From Chloroflexota bacterium (GTDB lineage Bacteria > Chloroflexota > Anaerolineae > UBA4142), in NCBI GenBank assembly GCA_016223105.1, contig JACRPR010000105.1, forward strand, positions 1 to 36,891: a stretch of DNA of 36,891 nt. The letters are read 5' to 3'. A program made the position numbers and the translations under genes. Positions within the stretch are counted from its first letter, which is position 1. Each line of letters opens with the position of its first letter. Below, one piece after another: positions 1-9,628 of the stretch. The notes below the pieces were generated by a model that worked only from the letters and a program-made list of their open reading frames with translations, had not been told where the DNA came from and ran no database searches.

Positions 1-374
1 AGTGTCGTGAGCAGTAATTCGCTTTCGTCGGTCTGATCCATCAACTCAACTGCGCCGCGAATGTTCTCTGCCGCTTCGGTCGTCATCGTGCGGATTTGTG
101 CGCGCTTGGGATACGCCTGTTGCTCTGCCGCGTCTTTAACCATCTCCAACCGCCGATACCCTTCAGCGATTTGCTCGACCGTTTGGCGATTGGTGGTGTT
201 GCCGATGAGCAGGCGCAATTCTTTCATCCCCGCTAATTGGCTTGCGATGCTCTCCAAACCCGAAACGAAAAAATAGCCAACCGCAAACCGCGCACTTTCG
301 GTTGAACTGAGAATTGTGTTGATGTGGTCAAGCAATTTTTCGTTGCGATTATCAATGATGTCGTGAGTGGGCAT
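1..374 (-). CDS. N-terminus of a PLD-like (probably helicase-fused) protein, partial
   Basis: The reading frame starts at an ATG at 374 and runs off the left edge, giving 124 residues. An AAGGA ribosome site lies 7 bases upstream of the start. The visible part begins MPTHDIIDNRNEKLLDHIN and contains ARFAVGYFFVSGLESI, LRLLIGNTTNRQTVEQ and EAAENIRGAVELM. This is the pattern of the phospholipase-D-like N-terminal domain that precedes SNF2/DEAD helicase cores in large defence-associated helicases. The catalytic HKD motif and any helicase motifs would lie outside the window, so the helicase part is inferred. It is downstream of, and on the same strand as, the DUF3800 gene and the adenine methyltransferase, which suggests one restriction-like operon. 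Confidence 0.6.
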   Translation of the reverse strand, partial: MPTHDIIDNRNEKLLDHINTILSSTESARFAVGYFFVSGLESIASQLAGMKELRLLIGNTTNRQTVEQIAEGYRRLEMVKDAAEQQAYPKRAQIRTMTTEAAENIRGAVELMDQTDESELLLTT

Positions 375-408
375 AGGGCGAATCCTTTTGAGCGCGCCAG
401 ATAGACGC

Positions 409-436
409 TTGACAATCCATACTTTCGTGCTAGAAT
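409..436 (+). promoter_or_regulatory. sigma70-like promoter TTGACA-16-TAGAAT
   Basis: A perfect -35 box (409-414) is followed after 16 bases by TAGAAT (431-436). It points rightward, against the leftward operon, and no coding gene on its strand follows. Transcription would begin near 443, just before two hairpins. Confidence 0.4.
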
Positions 437-443
437 GATTAGC

Positions 444-486
444 GAGATAGCAGTGCGCTGTCTCACAAAAAGCGATTACGCTTTTT
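444..486 (+). other. two consecutive hairpins, possible tiny RNA or terminator
   Basis: The first stem pairs GAGATAGC (444-451) with GCTGTCTC (457-464), with one G-U pair. The second pairs AAAAAGCG (467-474) with CGCTTTTT (479-486) over a 4-base loop, which resembles a terminator on either strand. A 10-bp inverted repeat (487-496 with 552-561) surrounds the remaining gap before the DUF3800 gene. The unit could simply terminate leftward readthrough from DUF3800. Confidence 0.35.
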
Positions 487-569
487 CCTGCTCTGCGAAA
501 AGTCGCCGATTGTGGCGGCCTGTCCCCCTCTCCGAGTGAGGGATCGGACTAGCAGAGCAGGTTTCGTTT

Positions 570-1193
570 TTATCCGCCGCGATACTCTAGGATTTGTTTG
601 ACCCGCTTGGTCAAATATTCGAAAGCATCCGCGTCAGCGCGCGTGTCTCGCCGTAAAATGGAACCGGCGACCAAATCGGCGACCTGAATGAGCGGCTCAC
701 TCCGCGAACGCTTGACGAGCACGCGCTTGAAACGCCGCGGAATATCGCGCGCGATCATAAATCGGCGCAGTTCGGTTCGCAAGCGCGCCGCTGGACCAAA
801 TTCGTCAAGAATTAATGTCGCACCGTCTCGTTTTTCAGGTGGAATGAGGCGGATCAGTTCGGTGACAAAGTAAATGTAGAAATCAAGTCGGGGCATGACC
901 TTGAATGAATCGGGCAACATCAACTTGTCGGCGATCAGCGCCCACGCTTCGAAATCCGCTGCGCCTAATGCCGTCAGGACGCGCTGGCGTAGTCGCGCCG
1001 AAGAGAGCGCGTGAAAACTAAACTCATAGTTAGAACGCAACCCCGCTTCTTGGCGCAGAGCCGCCAGGACTTGATACAGCCCGTCTGGATCGGGTGTTGC
1101 AATGACGGCGACGACAAAATAACGCGACGCGCCTTTGTCAAAGGCAAAACTAACATCGCCCGCTTCGTCACCCGCAAAGGTAAGCGTAATCAT
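570..1193 (-). CDS. DUF3800 domain protein
   Basis: This 207-residue protein begins with FAGDEAGD at residues 6-13. It carries LILDEFG near residue 128 and QVADLVAG near residue 170. These conserved acidic blocks mark the DUF3800 family, which is predicted to have an RNase H-like fold with the acidic residues as a metal site. The biochemical role is unproven, but the family is frequent in defence islands and on mobile elements. The ATG start has a GGGA ribosome site about 8 bases upstream. It lies 82 bases downstream of the adenine methyltransferase gene and upstream of the PLD-domain gene, all on the minus strand, so it is probably a component of that operon. Family assignment is good; function is inferred from context. 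Confidence 0.8.
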   Translation of the reverse strand: MITLTFAGDEAGDVSFAFDKGASRYFVVAVIATPDPDGLYQVLAALRQEAGLRSNYEFSFHALSSARLRQRVLTALGAADFEAWALIADKLMLPDSFKVMPRLDFYIYFVTELIRLIPPEKRDGATLILDEFGPAARLRTELRRFMIARDIPRRFKRVLVKRSRSEPLIQVADLVAGSILRRDTRADADAFEYLTKRVKQILEYRGG

Positions 1194-1275
1194 CAGTCAA
1201 TTTCCCTTCGGACGTTTCATTTTTCGCGGCTTTCGGTTGTTTCGCGAGTTTCGCGTTCCAAACGCCCTTCGCTCT

Positions 1276-4200
1276 TTACACACTCCCCGCTTTTTCTAAC
1301 CGCTTTTTCACCAACTCCACCACTGCCTCGTACACCGCGTCCCGTTCCCCGCGTGTCAATTTCAGTGCATCAAAAACCATGTCATCTAATGCACGACGAT
1401 CCGGTTGGTTGATTTCTTTTTCTACAGATACCCAATGCCGCCCCTTGAATTTATTCAATGCTGCCTTGGGATTTGAAATTTGTCTCTTTAGGAATTCCGG
1501 ATTGGGGACAAGAGTTTTTCGCAAGTCCCAAGTACTGATATCGAGCGCACCTGCTCCTAAATTTGCTCTTCCCACAATTTCTTTGGATAGAATCCAAAGC
1601 GTACTAGTCATTGCAAATACCAAGTATGTATTATCGCTTGTTTTGGATTCAAGCCCATAGAACCTTTGGTCGACCAATGTTTGAAAATCCACAAATGCAT
1701 GTTTATGAATATCATTCAAAGCTTTGACAGCAACAATATGCGCTTGCTCCGAATTTGCGAGCATCCACCAATTTCTTTTATTGTTAAAGAACGGTAAGGA
1801 GTGGAATCCTTTTACAGAATCACCTTTTTGCGAACCCTGGCGAATATTAACTCGCACGGACTCACCCCACTTAATATAATCTAGTGCAAACATGCCTCGG
1901 ATTTTGGCCTTTTCTTTCCGACAAACAAAAGCATGCTGGCGTATTGCCTCTTCTGACAACCAGAGACTATCGCAATCTCTTGGGTTCTTCACCAACGGTG
2001 CCAAGAATTCGCTTTCCATCTCGAATTCGTAACCAACTCTGTTAATACATACAGCTGTCTTTTGTGATTTATTCCAATTTTTGACTTCGACGTAAAAAAA
2101 GTCATTTGCTCCGCTCATTACCCCTAATGCAACATTAGCTACTGAACCTAATGGAACAACAACTTTACTCTCATCCATCAAACGAAGATAGATATCAGGG
2201 GCTCGCAAATATTTACCTCCCCATTTTCCACCTTGGTATTTTTCTACCGAACTCATAGTTGTTTCAGAGATTTGTGCAATATCCTCTCGCAGCAAATCAC
2301 TTTGATTTATTGGTGATACACGATATTCGGGAGTACTTTTTCGTTCATGTGCTTTCTCAATTTCCTGAAAGATAACAGGTGACAGAACATTTTCAAACGG
2401 CGTACGAAACATTACAAACCGAGCCGTCTTGCCCGAGCTACTTGATTTAGCAAGCATTGGTGGAGCTAGCAATGCGATAATCGTGTTCACATCCGCATTC
2501 TTGAAACTGCGCTTGGCTTGGTTATCCAAAATCATCTTGACATGTGATTGCGTAAGCAAAAATTCCTGCAGGTCCTTGCCGTAACCCACATCAAGCCACG
2601 AATTGGATGTGATAAAGCAGAACGAACCATTCGGGTTGACTTGTTTCAAACCGAGAAAATAGAAGTAAATATATAAATCACTCTTACCGTCTAGTTTGCG
2701 GTATTTTGGAATGCCGTGTTTATAACCAAAGAAATGTGGATATGCTTCTGCAACGGCTTCTGAAAGTTTTCCACGATACTCCCGTCGATTCTCGGTTGTC
2801 AGATCTGCCATTGCCAAAGTTGGATCGGCAATATTCTCATCGCTAACATACGGGGGATTGCCAACCATAATGCCAAAACCCTTTTCGTCGTCCTCAAAAA
2901 TTTCAACAAAGGCAATGTCCCACACAAACGGCACATCCTGGGTCGTGCGAAGCGCAGTGCGCGCAGATTCCACTTCGGTCAATTCGTCCTGGGCTGTTTC
3001 CAAATCTTCCTGTTTTTGTTTCATAAACAAATTGAGTTGTTCTGCGCCCTTGGATGTTTCCATTCCCAGCAAACTCATTTGCTCGGGCGGCTTGGCAATC
3101 TCGCGCTTGAGTTCGCGGACGCGCTTGTCCAAATCTTCTTTGCGCGCATCGAGAATCTCGCGAAAGATATTCAGTTCTTCTTTCTTGACCGCTTGTTCGG
3201 ATTTGAATTTGCTCGACCGCACGTCGTTGTAGAATTTCAACTTTTCTTCTTTGAGCGCAGTCAATTTGCGTTTGAGTGGCGCGGGAACGACGGAATGAGC
3301 GTGGTCCACGTTGAAAATAATGCCGCCGACTTGTTGCACGAGTGAATCGCCAACACGTAGTTTGAAGGAAAGATTTGGCAACAAGGGTTGCATTTTCATT
3401 TCAGCGGCGTCCAAATCAGTTTCGACAATCAATTGCAACCATAGGCGCAGTTCTGCCGTCCGCACCGCCCAGTCTTTGACATCCACACCGTACAGCGATT
3501 GACCAATGATGCGCTTGCGACGTTGGTACACCGTCTCGGTAATTTCCATTTGCTTGTTCGCGCGCGCTTGCAAATCGTCCACCACCATCAACATTCCAAC
3601 GATGAAGGAACCCGAACCGCACGCGGGATCGCACGCGGTCAGTTTACGCAGGAGTTCATTGATCGGTACCCACAATTTTACTTGTGCGAGCGCTTTGTCA
3701 GCGGCTTGCTTGTCCGCGTCGTCATACGCAAACACGGCTTGATAGATCAACGCTTTGAATTTTTCGCCGAGATGATTCGCCAGATAATCCACGAGCGCGA
3801 GCCGGCACATCAAATCAATCTCGATCCGTTGTGTGTAAAAGATACCGGCATTGCCGCGTTGGTCTTCGGTTTCGACGCCCTCAGTCGTAACGTTGACCAA
3901 ACTCTCGTACACCTTGCCAATCATTTCTGGGTCAACGGCGACTTCTTGATCGAACGGACTATCCTCGCGAATCGTGAAATTGTAGCGCTCGAAAAATCCT
4001 GGGGTTTGATTTGCAAAGCGATCGAACAGCGCGACGAAAATATCATCGCCAATTTTGACCGGGTGCTTGGTGTCTAAACCATTCCCGGCGAACAAACCTC
4101 CATTCAGATAGGGTGCGAGCGCAAGAGCATCGAGAAATTTCTTGGGTAAATGTTTGCGATCCGAGCGTCCCGCCTGGAATTGATTGTTGAACGCTTCAAA

Positions 4201-4995
4201 GAACAAAACTGAAAGCCAATCGCGGTAGAACGAATCTTTGGGCGCGCCCGATTTTTTGTACGTGTCCCAAAAATTGCATATGAAATCTGTATCATCGCCC
4301 AGCCAACGTTTGCGCTGAATGAAATAGAGGAACATCAACCGATTCAAAAATTGCTGTGCGAAATCGTGCGCCCATTGTGCGTCGCGCGTCTGCTTGCGTA
4401 AGTCTTTTTGCAATTGAGCAAAGATGACCTGGTAATAACCAAAGAACTGTTCGGTGACGGCTTCCACATCGAAAGCATCATCGTGTGCAGTTTGAATTGC
4501 CAGTGCATCAAGACCGAACAAGGTTTTTTGCATCGTTTCGACATCGAGCATCGAAATGCGCTCAGTGGCAGTCCGCAATCGCTCGTGCGGACCAACGACG
4601 ATGCGGCGGAAAATCTTGCGCCGCTTTGCATCGGTGTCATATTTGACGTTCACAAAATGCCAATGGTCTTGGCTTGCATTCGAAAAAACAAAGAGCGCGT
4701 AGGGGTGCTCATTCAAGAGCGCGGAGATGACAGGTCGTTCCAAACCCAGGAGGAGTTTTTCGGAATTGAGGCGCGCGTAGAGAACGTGGAAATCTTCGCG
4801 GTTGCCGCTAGCGGCAAACAAAAGTGGATTTTCGACAAGCGCGTTTGTCGCCGCATCAATCCAGCCGCGAATCGGCAGTGGATCGTTGACGCGCTCGTAA
4901 TTTAACTCAGACCAGAAGAGTTGTTTCAAGCCATCGAGATTACGCAGGTCGCGGAGAATATCGTGAATCGATTGGCGAATGTCAGAGTTGGGCAT
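1276..4995 (-). CDS. Eco57I-class N6-adenine DNA methyltransferase (large, type IIG/PglX-like)
   Basis: This protein of about 1239 residues has the gamma-class methyltransferase order: SAM motif DPACGSGSF near residue 455 and catalytic NPPY near residue 713. An N-terminal helical domain (1-440) has conserved blocks such as HWHFVNVKYD. A charged coiled-coil insertion lies at about 580-680, and a long C-terminal region (about 850-1239) is probably the target-recognition domain. It should methylate adenine in a specific DNA site. I see no PD-(D/E)xK nuclease motif at the N-terminus, so cleavage, if any, would come from partner proteins. The start is the ATG at 4995, because AAGGA lies 8 bases before it; a TTG two codons earlier is too close. 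The C-terminal third (about 1430-2430) is clearly AT-richer than the rest. It is the first gene of a leftward operon and divergent from an HTH regulator. Confidence 0.85.
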   Translation of the reverse strand: MPNSDIRQSIHDILRDLRNLDGLKQLFWSELNYERVNDPLPIRGWIDAATNALVENPLLFAASGNREDFHVLYARLNSEKLLLGLERPVISALLNEHPYALFVFSNASQDHWHFVNVKYDTDAKRRKIFRRIVVGPHERLRTATERISMLDVETMQKTLFGLDALAIQTAHDDAFDVEAVTEQFFGYYQVIFAQLQKDLRKQTRDAQWAHDFAQQFLNRLMFLYFIQRKRWLGDDTDFICNFWDTYKKSGAPKDSFYRDWLSVLFFEAFNNQFQAGRSDRKHLPKKFLDALALAPYLNGGLFAGNGLDTKHPVKIGDDIFVALFDRFANQTPGFFERYNFTIREDSPFDQEVAVDPEMIGKVYESLVNVTTEGVETEDQRGNAGIFYTQRIEIDLMCRLALVDYLANHLGEKFKALIYQAVFAYDDADKQAADKALAQVKLWVPINELLRKLTACDPACGSGSFIVGMLMVVDDLQARANKQMEITETVYQRRKRIIGQSLYGVDVKDWAVRTAELRLWLQLIVETDLDAAEMKMQPLLPNLSFKLRVGDSLVQQVGGIIFNVDHAHSVVPAPLKRKLTALKEEKLKFYNDVRSSKFKSEQAVKKEELNIFREILDARKEDLDKRVRELKREIAKPPEQMSLLGMETSKGAEQLNLFMKQKQEDLETAQDELTEVESARTALRTTQDVPFVWDIAFVEIFEDDEKGFGIMVGNPPYVSDENIADPTLAMADLTTENRREYRGKLSEAVAEAYPHFFGYKHGIPKYRKLDGKSDLYIYFYFLGLKQVNPNGSFCFITSNSWLDVGYGKDLQEFLLTQSHVKMILDNQAKRSFKNADVNTIIALLAPPMLAKSSSSGKTARFVMFRTPFENVLSPVIFQEIEKAHERKSTPEYRVSPINQSDLLREDIAQISETTMSSVEKYQGGKWGGKYLRAPDIYLRLMDESKVVVPLGSVANVALGVMSGANDFFYVEVKNWNKSQKTAVCINRVGYEFEMESEFLAPLVKNPRDCDSLWLSEEAIRQHAFVCRKEKAKIRGMFALDYIKWGESVRVNIRQGSQKGDSVKGFHSLPFFNNKRNWWMLANSEQAHIVAVKALNDIHKHAFVDFQTLVDQRFYGLESKTSDNTYLVFAMTSTLWILSKEIVGRANLGAGALDISTWDLRKTLVPNPEFLKRQISNPKAALNKFKGRHWVSVEKEINQPDRRALDDMVFDALKLTRGERDAVYEAVVELVKKRLEKAGSV

Positions 4996-5078
4996 CGTCA
5001 AAATCCTTTATCTACCAGTTGGCAAAATATCAAAGTAAAGGAATCTTTGCCTTCAACGTGGGTGTTAAAAAAACAGAC

Positions 5079-5107
5079 TTGACAAACTTAATTATTTGCC
5101 TTAGTAT
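5079..5107 (+). promoter_or_regulatory. promoter TTGACA-17-TAGTAT for the HTH gene
   Basis: The -35 box is perfect (5079-5084), the spacer is 17 and the -10 is 5102-5107. Transcription should start at about 5113-5116, at or within a few bases of the ATG at 5116, so the mRNA would be leaderless. No ribosome site is visible before that ATG. Confidence 0.65.
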
Positions 5108-5115
5108 GTGACTCG

Positions 5116-5319
5116 ATGACACGCGACGAAGTAGTTGAATTGCTTCGAAAGAAGATTGAGAAAGCAGGAACTCAAGTAGCCATTGCTCGAGAATTTGGCG
5201 TGACTGAAGCATACATTAGCGACATACTTCACGGCAAAAGCGCGCCCGGCGAAAAGGTTCTTGTTGGACTCGGGTTGCGTCGAGTAGTTAGTTACGTGAG
5301 AAGAGAAACGAAAAAATAA
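5116..5319 (+). CDS. small XRE-like HTH regulator, possible controller of the methyltransferase operon
   Basis: This is a 67-residue basic protein. Residues about 18-41 (TQVAIAREFGVTEAYISDI and the following HGK) fit a helix-turn-helix of the XRE/Cro type, followed by LGLRRVVSYVRR. It is shorter than most XRE repressors but similar in size to restriction-modification controller proteins and phage Cro-like proteins. It is transcribed divergently from the adenine methyltransferase across a 120-bp gap and probably from a leaderless mRNA, a trait shared with several known controller-protein genes. Control of the neighbouring operon is inferred; no clear paired operator boxes were found. A terminator follows at 5421-5443. 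Confidence 0.7.
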   Translation: MTRDEVVELLRKKIEKAGTQVAIAREFGVTEAYISDILHGKSAPGEKVLVGLGLRRVVSYVRRETKK

Positions 5320-5847: not shown

Positions 5848-5982
5848 TTTTTGCGTTCTGATGTAACCGCGCTCGCGGTTTTGCGTAGATAGAATTGCGC
5901 GCAATGAAACGGCGCGCGCGAAGGCGCGTCGGCATTGCCAATTTTTCCCTCCACATTCCCCGGCGCGCGTCAGGAGCCAGCT

Positions 5983-7119
5983 ATGTTTTGGAAACGCAAC
6001 AAGCTCAACCTCAAATCCAACGACAATTTGTATGAACATGGCAATGAACATCTTATCGAAATTCGTGGCGTAACGAAAACGTTTCAAACGGCGGCAGGCG
6101 CATTCCCCGCGCTCAAAAATGTTGATCTCCGCGTGGATCACAGCGAGTTCGTCGCGGTCATTGGCAAATCGGGAAGCGGCAAATCTACCTTGATCAATAT
6201 GATCGCCGGGATTGATCGCCCCACCGCCGGTCAAGTGTACGTCGGCGATACCGCCGTGCACAAACTCAACGAAGGACAAATGGCAGTGTGGCGCGGCAAA
6301 AACCTGGGCATCGTGTTTCAATTTTTCCAACTCTTGCCCACGCTCACGCTCGTCGAAAACGTCATGTTGCCGATGGATTTTTGCAACGTTCACAAATCGA
6401 ACGAACGCGAAAAAATCGCGATGCACTTGCTCGATCAAATGGAGATGGCGGATCACGCGCACAAACTGCCATCGGGAATTTCCGGCGGACAACAACAACG
6501 CGTCGCGATTGCGCGCGCGCTCGCGAACGATCCGCCGATCCTCATCGCGGACGAACCGACCGGCAATCTCGATTCGCGCACCGCCGATTCGGTCTTTGAA
6601 TTATTCGAAGCGTTGGTCAAACAAGGCAAAACGATTTTGATGGTCACGCACGATCGCGATCTCGCGAAACGCGTGACGCGCTCGGTGATCATCGCGGACG
6701 GCGAGATCATCGAAGAATCGCTCGCGCGCGTGTTCGCAGCGCTGTCATCGGCGCAACTAATCGCCGCGACGCACAAAGCCGATCCCGAACGGTACGCGCC
6801 CGGCGCGATCATTATCGAACAAGGCAAACCCAATGATCATTTGCACGTCATTCTCAAAGGCGCGATCGAGGTCGTCAAACGCCAAGCCGATGGAAGCGAC
6901 CTGGTCGTCGCGACGATGCGCCCAGGACAATACTTTGGCGAAATCGAAATGCTCTCCGGCGCGCCGAGCATCGCGACGATTCGCGCGGTGGATGATGTGG
7001 AAACCGTGATGCTCGACCAGGTCGCGTTTCAAAAAATGATCGGCGAATCGCAAACGACGCGCGCGGAGATTGATCGCATCGCGCAACAACGGCTTGCCGA
7101 GAATCGAGGCGCGCGATGA
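5983..7119 (+). CDS. ABC transporter ATPase (LolD/MacB type) fused to a cNMP-binding-like domain
   Basis: The start is the ATG at 5983, with AGGAG six bases upstream; the frame is open further upstream from a TTG but without a ribosome site. This 378-residue protein has an ATPase of the LolD/MacB family: Walker [10 protein letters not shown] near residue 61, signature SGGQQQR near 167, Walker [13 protein letters not shown] near 187 and the H-loop histidine in VTHDRD near 221. Residues about 255-375 form a CAP/cNMP-type beta-barrel with [13 protein letters not shown]. The arginine that normally contacts the cyclic-nucleotide phosphate (in PRxA) is replaced by PSIA, so true cNMP binding is doubtful. 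It powers the FtsX-type permease encoded next. Fusion of a sensor-like barrel to this ATPase class is uncommon. Confidence 0.88.
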
Positions 7120-7189: not shown

Positions 7190-9628
7190 ATGATCGCACC
7201 ACGTTGGCGCAAAATTTTTCGCGACCTGTGGAGCAATAAAACGCGCACGCTCCTAGTCGCACTTTCGATTGCGGTCGGCGTGTTCGGCGTCGGCACCGTA
7301 ACGCACACGTTCACCATCGTGCAAAATGAAATGATGGCGGCGTACCCCAAATCGAATCCGGCGAGCGCGACGTTGTACCTCGACGCGTTCGATGACTCGC
7401 TGATTCAAACCGTGCGCCGGATGCCGGGCATTGCCGATGTCGAAGCGCGCACCGCGTTGAATGTCCGCGTGCGCGTCGCGCCGGACGAATGGCGACCGCT
7501 CGGTTTGTACACGATTCCGGATTTCAACGCGTCGCGCATCAACAAAGTCTGGCGGCAAGGGTTCTATGAAGCCGCGCCCGCGTTCGGCGCGGAGAATGGC
7601 GAATATCCTCCGCCCGATCGCGCAGTCGCGCTCGAACGATCCTCGTTGTTGATTCCGGGAATGCTTCCGCCCGGCGTCACGGTTGGCGACACGCTCGAAA
7701 TCGAAACGATCGCGGGACAAAAACGGACGCTGAAAATCGCGGGACTCGCGCACGAGGAAACCAATTTTCCCGCGCCGTTTATGAACCAGGCGTACGGATA
7801 CATCACGCTCGAAACGCAAGAGTGGTTGACCGGTTCGCGACGCTCGGATCAATTGATGATCATTGTCGCGGACAAGACACTGAAACAAAAAGAGATCAAC
7901 GCGCTCGCCGAGCAAGTCAAAACCAAAATCGAATCCGGCGGTATCACGGTGTACGTCGTTCAAGTGCCGGAGCCGGGCAAACATCCCTTGCACGATTTGT
8001 TCGCCGCGCTGTTGCTCTTGCTCAACGGACTTGGTTTCGCGTCGCTCTTGTTGAGCGGCTTTCTCGTCGTCAACACGATTTCCGCGTTGCTCAGTCAACA
8101 AGTGCGCCAAATCGGAATTATGAAAGCGATTGGCGCGCGCGCGCGCCAGGTCGTCGGCTTGTATTTGGTGATGATTATTTTGTTTGGTGTGCTCGCGTTG
8201 ATCATCGCGATTCCGTTGAGCATCCTTGCCGCCGGACAATTGAGTTTGTATCTCGCCGGATTTATCAACGTAGATTTTCCCGCGTTCACGATTCCGCCGA
8301 ACGTGCTCGCGCTCGAAATCGCGATTGGTATGCTCGTGCCGATCCTCGCGGGCTTGTTCCCGGTGATTGCCGGGACGCGCATCACCGTGCGCGCGGCGCT
8401 GAACGATTACGGCATCGGGAGCAACACGCCCAAGCAAGGATTCATTGATCGCGCGTTGATGCGCGTGCGCGTGTTATCGCGCCCGACGCGGCTTTCATTG
8501 CGGAATACATTTCGCCGCAAAGCGCGACTCGCGCTTACGTTGACCACGCTCATTCTCGGCGGCGCGATTTTTATTTCGGTGATGAGCGCGCGTTCTTCGA
8601 TGGTACAAACCGTTGAAGACTTGCTCAAGTATTGGCAGTTCGATGTGCTGGTGCAATTCGCGCGCCCGTATCGCATGGAACAGCTCGAGCAAATCGCGCG
8701 CGCGATTCCCGGCGTCGAGCGCGTCGAGATGTGGGGCTTGATGAACGCGCGGCGGATGCGCGCGGAGGGCAGTGAGGGCGGCGCGATTTTGTTGTTCGCG
8801 CCGACCGAAGCAACGCGGATGATCGATCCGACAATCTCGCAAGGGCGGTGGTTGTTGCCGGAGGATGAAAACGCGATTGTCGTCAGCAACACCTTTCTCA
8901 CCGCCGAGCCGGATGTGAAACTCGGCGACACGATTATTTTGAAAATTCAAAATCGCGAATATCCCTGGCGTATCGTCGGCATTTGCACGGCGCGCTTTGG
9001 CGCGAGCGGCGTCGCGTACGTGAATTACGGTTACTATGCGCGCGCGCTGAATGAGGTCGGGCGCGCGGGCAGTCTGCAACTCGTCACGACCCAGCACGAT
9101 CCCGAATACCAAGCCAAAATCAAACGCGATCTCGATGAGCAACTCAAGAAACAAGGTGTGCGCGTCGGCTTTAGTATGACGAGCGGCGACATCCGAACGC
9201 AAAATGAAATGTTCTTCAACATCATCGCGGGATTGTTGATCGTGATGGCGATCTTGATGGCGTTGGTCGGCGGGCTCGGCTTGATGGGCACGATGTCGCT
9301 CAACGTGCTCGAGCGCACGCGCGAGATTGGCGTGATGCGCGCGGTCGGCGCGTCGAACGGTGCGGTGCGGCGCGTCATTATGATCGAAGGATTGTTCATC
9401 GGCATTTTGAGCGGACTGATCGCAATCGCCATCGCGTTTCCGCTTGGCAAACTCATCGCGGAGGGCATTGGTGCCGCCCTGTTCGAGCAATCGCTCAGTT
9501 ACGAATTTTCATTGTTCGGCGCGACGTTGTGGATGATTATTGTGATCCTCTTGTCCGCGCTCGCGAGTGTTCTGCCCGCGCATAACGCATCGCGCATGAC
9601 CGTGCGCGAAATTCTCGCGTATGATTGA
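7190..9628 (+). CDS. ABC transporter permease with two FtsX domains
   Basis: The 812-residue permease begins with a membrane helix at about 18-38, followed by a MacB-like extracytoplasmic domain (about 45-255). A three-helix FtsX core follows (about 265-395, with QIGIMKAIGARARQVVGLY), then a second N-terminal helix near 440-465 and a second extracytoplasmic domain. A final FtsX core (about 675-812) contains REIGVMRAVGASNGAV. This is the double-FtsX arrangement of LolCE/YknZ/DUF214-type exporters, moving lipids, peptides or drugs outward or driving mechanotransmission rather than importing. The ATG at 7190 has AGAAGG upstream. It lies between the ATPase and the lipoprotein adaptor genes. The substrate is unknown. 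Confidence 0.88.
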   Translation: MIAPRWRKIFRDLWSNKTRTLLVALSIAVGVFGVGTVTHTFTIVQNEMMAAYPKSNPASATLYLDAFDDSLIQTVRRMPGIADVEARTALNVRVRVAPDEWRPLGLYTIPDFNASRINKVWRQGFYEAAPAFGAENGEYPPPDRAVALERSSLLIPGMLPPGVTVGDTLEIETIAGQKRTLKIAGLAHEETNFPAPFMNQAYGYITLETQEWLTGSRRSDQLMIIVADKTLKQKEINALAEQVKTKIESGGITVYVVQVPEPGKHPLHDLFAALLLLLNGLGFASLLLSGFLVVNTISALLSQQVRQIGIMKAIGARARQVVGLYLVMIILFGVLALIIAIPLSILAAGQLSLYLAGFINVDFPAFTIPPNVLALEIAIGMLVPILAGLFPVIAGTRITVRAALNDYGIGSNTPKQGFIDRALMRVRVLSRPTRLSLRNTFRRKARLALTLTTLILGGAIFISVMSARSSMVQTVEDLLKYWQFDVLVQFARPYRMEQLEQIARAIPGVERVEMWGLMNARRMRAEGSEGGAILLFAPTEATRMIDPTISQGRWLLPEDENAIVVSNTFLTAEPDVKLGDTIILKIQNREYPWRIVGICTARFGASGVAYVNYGYYARALNEVGRAGSLQLVTTQHDPEYQAKIKRDLDEQLKKQGVRVGFSMTSGDIRTQNEMFFNIIAGLLIVMAILMALVGGLGLMGTMSLNVLERTREIGVMRAVGASNGAVRRVIMIEGLFIGILSGLIAIAIAFPLGKLIAEGIGAALFEQSLSYEFSLFGATLWMIIVILLSALASVLPAHNASRMTVREILAYD

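Follow-up and report, generated by a model that had tools for sequence, protein, structure and literature searches.

A candidate methylase/HKD-SNF2 restriction pair, a DUF3800/RNA module, and an HTH gene at one locus of a Chloroflexota bacterium

Genes and features of the locus

The window (the whole stretch of 36,891 nucleotides that was analysed) came from a draft genome of a Chloroflexota bacterium (5.5 Mb, 250 contigs), and its left edge was the true start of contig C30. All four genes of the original prediction were found in place by ORF calling, and three of them were matched by the Pfam models Eco57I, DUF3800, and HTH_3 (Table 1). A further element, absent from that prediction, was a structured RNA together with its promoter (409-566, plus strand). 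The leftmost ORF ran into the contig end, and a search with a full-length helicase as the query found the rest of this gene on no contig of the source genome. In the methylase gene, the ATG at 4995, with AAAGGA upstream, was a likelier start than 5001; purine-rich sequence preceded the starts of both the methylase and PLD genes.

Table 1. Genes and features identified at the left end of the window
Feature	Position	Strand	Description
Truncated left ORF	about 1-374 (ORF 3-374)	-	124 aa, open at the window edge; very likely the N-terminal 124 aa of an HKD (PLD-like) nuclease-SNF2 helicase
Sigma-70 promoter of DUF3800-IX RNA	409-436	+	TTGACA-16-TAGAAT, TG before -10, 11/12
Possible first 5' hairpin of DUF3800-IX RNA	444-464	+	GAGATAG..CTGTCTC, inspection by eye
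5' hairpin immediately before the Rfam motif	467-486	+	AAAAAGCG-ATTA-CGCTTTTT
DUF3800-IX RNA (Rfam RF02968)	486-566	+	followed by a U-rich tail
DUF3800 gene	570-1193	-	207 aa; PF12686, 5.7e-10
Methylase	1276-4995	-	ORF to 5001, 1241 aa; Eco57I-class N6-adenine, C-terminal target-recognition region
HTH gene promoter	5079-5107	+	TTGACA-17-TAGTAT; transcript predicted to begin at the ATG or beside it
HTH gene	5116-5319	+	67 aa; small XRE/Cro-type, HTH_3 2.6e-5

The promoter of the HTH gene stopped 8 nt ahead of its ATG. Since five of six homologues from other genomes also kept TTGAC(A/G), the spacing of 17 nt, a -10-like box, and an ATG approximately 8-10 nt on, the earlier view of this gene as leaderless was well supported by both promoter geometry and conservation. 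Four genomes of the same family had homologues (38-81% identity), all of them standing apart from any methylase, and the related methylase/helicase loci yielded no HTH homologue; this solitary occurrence argued against membership in a restriction system. The HTH gene is independent and leaderless, and it probably regulates itself. Farther to the right, the window encoded an ABC-transporter ATPase fused to a cyclic-nucleotide-binding domain (5935-7119), followed by a large permease-like ORF (7190-9628).

The methylase and its HKD-SNF2 partner

The methylase matched the Eco57I (4.6e-24) and MmeI_Mtase (8e-10) models and carried DPACGSG (SAM) at residue 458 and NPPY at residue 715, as in N6-adenine methylases of the Eco57I class. 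No conserved (D/E)xK motif was present in residues 1-200 when 17 homologues were aligned: the best aligned candidate occurred in 5 of the 17 sequences, and the methylase of the window was not among them. A structural model of residues 3-460 (pLDDT 78) gave no significant PDB match. The absence of a visible nuclease domain, as originally noted, was thus supported, and a nuclease function of the N-terminal domain was rejected for lack of both a conserved motif and a fold match. A methylase without a nuclease domain makes the HKD protein the likely nuclease. Among 199 related genomes, 18, the source genome being one of them, encoded a homologue of the methylase (E<=1e-60); four public loci, belonging to Poribacteria, Armatimonadetes, and Bacteroidales, were found besides.

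The 124-aa left fragment, taken alone, had no match to Pfam PLD. On the other hand, it matched the N terminus of the PADLOC model 'HKD+Snf2' (6.7e-6) and aligned along its entire length with the beginning of HKD-SNF2 proteins of 1,100-1,350 aa, at 51-63% identity (61% for L029:4239-7553; L numbers denote the loci compared). The HKD motif lies at approximately residue 144 in relatives, a position that, like the helicase motifs, falls beyond the contig end in the window. Judging from these 124 residues, the PLD nuclease of the original prediction is very likely an HKD-SNF2 fusion, presumably one that is intact in the organism. In relatives, the full-length partner was an HKD nuclease of approximately 1,100 aa fused to an SNF2 translocase, with the Pfam domains PLDc_2, SNF2, and Helicase_C. 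The HKD and GSSN motifs, Walker A, and a DESH/DEAH-type box were found in 11 full-length partners, and the SF2 motif VI pattern in 9 of these 11. The PADLOC model concerned (C3a139) was matched at 3e-81 by the full-length partner of relatives and at its N terminus by the fragment in the window; the literature searched contained no published account of the model.

Among 17 methylase loci that were found independently and had usable flanks, about 15 had HKD-SNF2 next to the methylase (present in L025-L037, L041, and L044; missing in L024 and the fragment L043). This was a hand count from profile searches with wider flanks; it did not include the window or L047, a locus detected with the PLD query. 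The same pair layout occurred on plasmids of the archaea Thermococcus and Halorussus and the cyanobacterium Nostoc, and other defence genes (McrBC; viperin) were located near the pair in Halorussus and Nostoc. A second, divergent methylase and HKD-SNF2 pair with reversed gene order was present in the source genome (G000:C155, L047:1641-8041). Judged from their protein families, the methylase and HKD-SNF2 protein most likely constitute an ATP-dependent two-protein restriction-modification system. Of the four families originally proposed to co-localise, these two were recurrent neighbours, whereas DUF3800 and HTH were not.

Type-2 BREX-related systems contain an N6-methylase and an HKD-endoDNase fused to a Swi2/Snf2 helicase, which is the restriction effector, and also carry a DUF499 ATPase and DUF3780 (PMC12839542); related HKD-SF2 fusions have been described as restriction effectors (PMC12839542, PMC10853773). 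Although the N6-methylase with an HKD-Snf2 fusion is common to these systems and the present pair, DUF499 and DUF3780 were not among the pair genes, and the selected flanking ORFs tested in relatives were housekeeping or unrelated (the left flank of the window being past the contig end). In comparison with class 1 DISARM, the SNF2 helicase and Eco57I-like methylase scored with the DrmD and DrmMI models, which were not the best-scoring ones. DrmA, DrmB, DrmC, and a separate PLD gene were not seen beside the pairs of relatives, the left flank of the window again lying past the contig end.

In relatives with the order methylase-gap-helicase, the intergenic gap was usually filled, and its contents, counted by simple ORF calling with uncurated gene starts, were variable: HicAB (L028), a RelB-like antitoxin (L029), PIN/DUF4411 with an XRE-M78 protein (L034), Y1 transposases (L034-L037), DUF3644 (L026 and L101), a possible restriction enzyme (L032), AbiEii (Thermococcus), and a nucleotidyltransferase with a putative HEPN protein (L100 and L101). 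In L099, a nucleotidyltransferase-HepT pair stood before the helicase, and the gap was empty in L030 and L104. The gap of L100 also contained another, different DUF3800 without the DUF3800-IX RNA; the type of DUF3800 found in the window, with its RNA, was absent from every other methylase/helicase pair examined. A Fic/DOC protein was encoded at L100:604-1758, directly upstream of the methylase/DUF3800/nucleotidyltransferase/helicase cluster.

The DUF3800 gene and the DUF3800-IX RNA

The structural model of the DUF3800 protein (pLDDT 92.6) had RNase HII/H2 as its top PDB matches (probability 1.00, E down to 2e-5, TM 0.52-0.60). Asp9 and Asp173 were invariant, and Glu10 and Asp130 were conserved in at least 90%; the DEAG motif of DUF3800 resembles that of RNase HII. 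This fold and these acidic residues fit the RNase H superfamily, and the protein is a predicted nuclease. The RNase H fold of DUF3800 has already been published (PMC10910872; PMC12669027). Searches of plasmids and phages with the protein gave no match.

The non-coding DNA 3' of the DUF3800 gene recurred beside other DUF3800 genes of the same genome, and on the strand opposite to the gene it scored 51.6 bits with the covariance model RF02968 (gathering threshold, 36.8 bits). Both an RNA above the gathering score and an adjacent DUF3800 gene were found, as in the Rfam family DUF3800-IX; here, the RNA was convergent at the 3' end of the gene, had its own promoter, and included an extra 5' hairpin that the Rfam model lacks. 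A minus-strand hit of the NiCo riboswitch (20.6 bits against a gathering score of 64.5) was rejected as a chance match to the same palindromes. The promoter of the RNA was the top promoter match within the first 6 kb, and promoter-like sites were located at the equivalent place in most other DUF3800-IX loci.

The hairpin directly 5' of the Rfam motif was present in all 27 aligned loci, with 17 different arms, and its mean score was 9.4, compared with 2.2 after shuffling (in the window, 11 against a shuffled 99th percentile of 8). This conservation indicates that the RNA extends beyond the Rfam model. The predicted transcript spans approximately 443-575 on the plus strand. A first hairpin of the GAGATAG..CTGTCTC type could likewise be recognised by eye in L115 and L121, and compensatory changes supported the helices of the DUF3800-IX motif. 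Among the 199 relatives, the RNA was present in 26 genomes. Full-length members of the DUF3800 clade numbered 40; in 31 of these the RNA lay 3-40 nt past the end of the gene, and in all 31 it was convergent. RNAs persisted beside broken or missing DUF3800 genes (L114, L119, L125, L128, L135, and G011:C40:45928-45998), as if the RNA outlived the protein at loci with a decayed DUF3800. The source genome contained a fifth DUF3800-IX RNA (G000:C139:7079-7179) with no above-threshold DUF3800 gene nearby, and tandem DUF3800 copies beside the RNA were observed in G017:C4, G082:C347, and G019:C118.

Within the source genome, the copies on contigs C30 and C105 aligned without gaps over 730 nt. Their dS was 0.88 and dN 0.039 (dN/dS of 0.04), and 5 of 81 RNA positions had changed, including a compensatory pair; the gene and RNA are thus both under selection. 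The alignable similarity ended 2 nt before the start codon, and no conserved promoter was found for the DUF3800 gene. In spite of the sharp block edges, recent transposition was rejected, since a dS of 0.88 indicates that these edges reflect constraint and not a fresh insertion.

On contig C40 of the source genome, the module lay between nuoL and nuoM in a gap of approximately 1,065 nt (L096:2992-3799). When this gap was compared among relatives (L145-L160), it measured -7, 15, 8, and 41 nt in G003, G004, G014, and G015, respectively, and thus represented an empty site. In other genomes it contained toxin-antitoxin-like genes (G001) or Y1 transposase remnants (G006 and G008), both identified by eye, another DUF3800 (G016), or a lone DUF3800-IX RNA (G011). 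DUF3800 modules and toxin-antitoxin-like genes, as well as transposase remnants, have landed between nuoL and nuoM. As its place in the nuo operon shows, the module is not confined to restriction loci, and toxin-antitoxin genes occupy the same kind of site. The proposal that DUF3800 is a restriction component was not borne out, because the module occurred in unrelated operons and no other pair had such a DUF3800 with the RNA.

Interpretation of the locus

The locus consists of three unrelated things, and is not a single four-gene operon. In our preferred reading, to which we assign a probability of roughly three in four, a two-protein restriction-modification locus holds an unrelated DUF3800/RNA module between its genes and is flanked by an independent HTH gene. 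The restriction-like system originally proposed was retained with the PLD (HKD) protein as its nuclease; neither a part for DUF3800 in it, as the nuclease or otherwise, nor membership of the HTH protein was supported. Based on the protein families, the methylase, which has its own target-recognition region, would tag the DNA of the host through methylation of adenine. Restriction would fall to HKD-SNF2, an ATP-driven translocase whose N-terminal HKD nuclease would act on untagged DNA in a type I/III-like manner.

An unlikely alternative is that DUF3800 and its RNA are a restriction accessory, a second nuclease, under RNA control, that is freed when restriction fails, as with PrrC next to a type I system. 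HEPN toxins linked to restriction systems have been proposed to play a back-up role (PMC3710099), the gap in relatives contains HicAB, nucleotidyltransferase-HEPN, PIN, AbiEii, and DUF3644 proteins, and DUF3800 is itself a predicted nuclease. However, the same module occurred in the respiratory (nuo) operon and elsewhere in the source genome, the nuo gap received similar cargo, so that the position may be merely permissive, and no other pair contained a DUF3800 of this type with the RNA. A loose functional link between DUF3800 and the pair may nevertheless exist, because the L100 pair also has a DUF3800.

Some restriction systems are regulated by controller proteins of the leaderless HTH kind. 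A single defence system of all four genes, with DUF3800 or PLD as the nuclease and HTH as the controller, would agree with their adjacency, with three of them on the same strand, and with an HTH gene before the methylase of Nostoc (L197); it is largely contradicted, and very improbable, since the HTH homologues were away from methylases, with none at related methylase/helicase loci, and DUF3800 acts as an independent module. There is similarly little to be expected from a stand-alone type IIG methylase with an incidental helicase: the PADLOC type IIG models were the best match (7e-49), but the nuclease domain within the methylase chain that marks this type was not found in the window's methylase, its N-terminal 200 residues had no conserved nuclease motif, the model of residues 3-460 had no significant structural match, and the HKD-SNF2 partner was recurrent.

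Within the preferred reading of a restriction pair with an unrelated module, DUF3800, without a conserved promoter of its own, would be co-transcribed with the host operon. The DUF3800-IX RNA, from its own strong promoter, would end at the 3' end of the gene and be complementary to the read-through DUF3800 transcript, and the RNase-H-fold nuclease would be restrained by, or act with, this RNA. In AbiF-RCd22, a toxic protein is neutralised by the direct binding of a conserved structured RNA; AbiF is Cas13-related, whereas DUF3800 has an RNase H fold, and the comparison is an analogy only (PMC12373285). A toxin/RNA-antitoxin role is the best hypothesis for DUF3800 suggested by its context, selection, predicted fold, and this analogy. 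More tentatively, with the odds against it, the module may represent a novel type of toxin-RNA antitoxin, or of RNA-dependent nuclease, in which an RNase HII-fold nuclease expressed by read-through is restrained by a convergent structured RNA with its own promoter. Such a module would settle in intergenic gaps of operons, restriction operons among them, where it would replace classical toxin-antitoxin pairs.

The restriction pair would be a further case of a known system type, and the DUF3800/RNA association is known from Rfam/Pfam, its function being unexplained. A vague 'defence operon' was converted into two testable units. The first is a widespread two-protein restriction layout, for which no specific name was found in the literature searched, with a gap repeatedly occupied by toxin-antitoxin genes. 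The second, the DUF3800/RNA module, combines a fixed convergent geometry, an RNA with its own promoter, a predicted nuclease resembling RNase HII, purifying selection that is strong, and RNAs persisting beside decayed genes, and provides a concrete hypothesis for the approximately eleven orphan Rfam families that bear the name of DUF3800.
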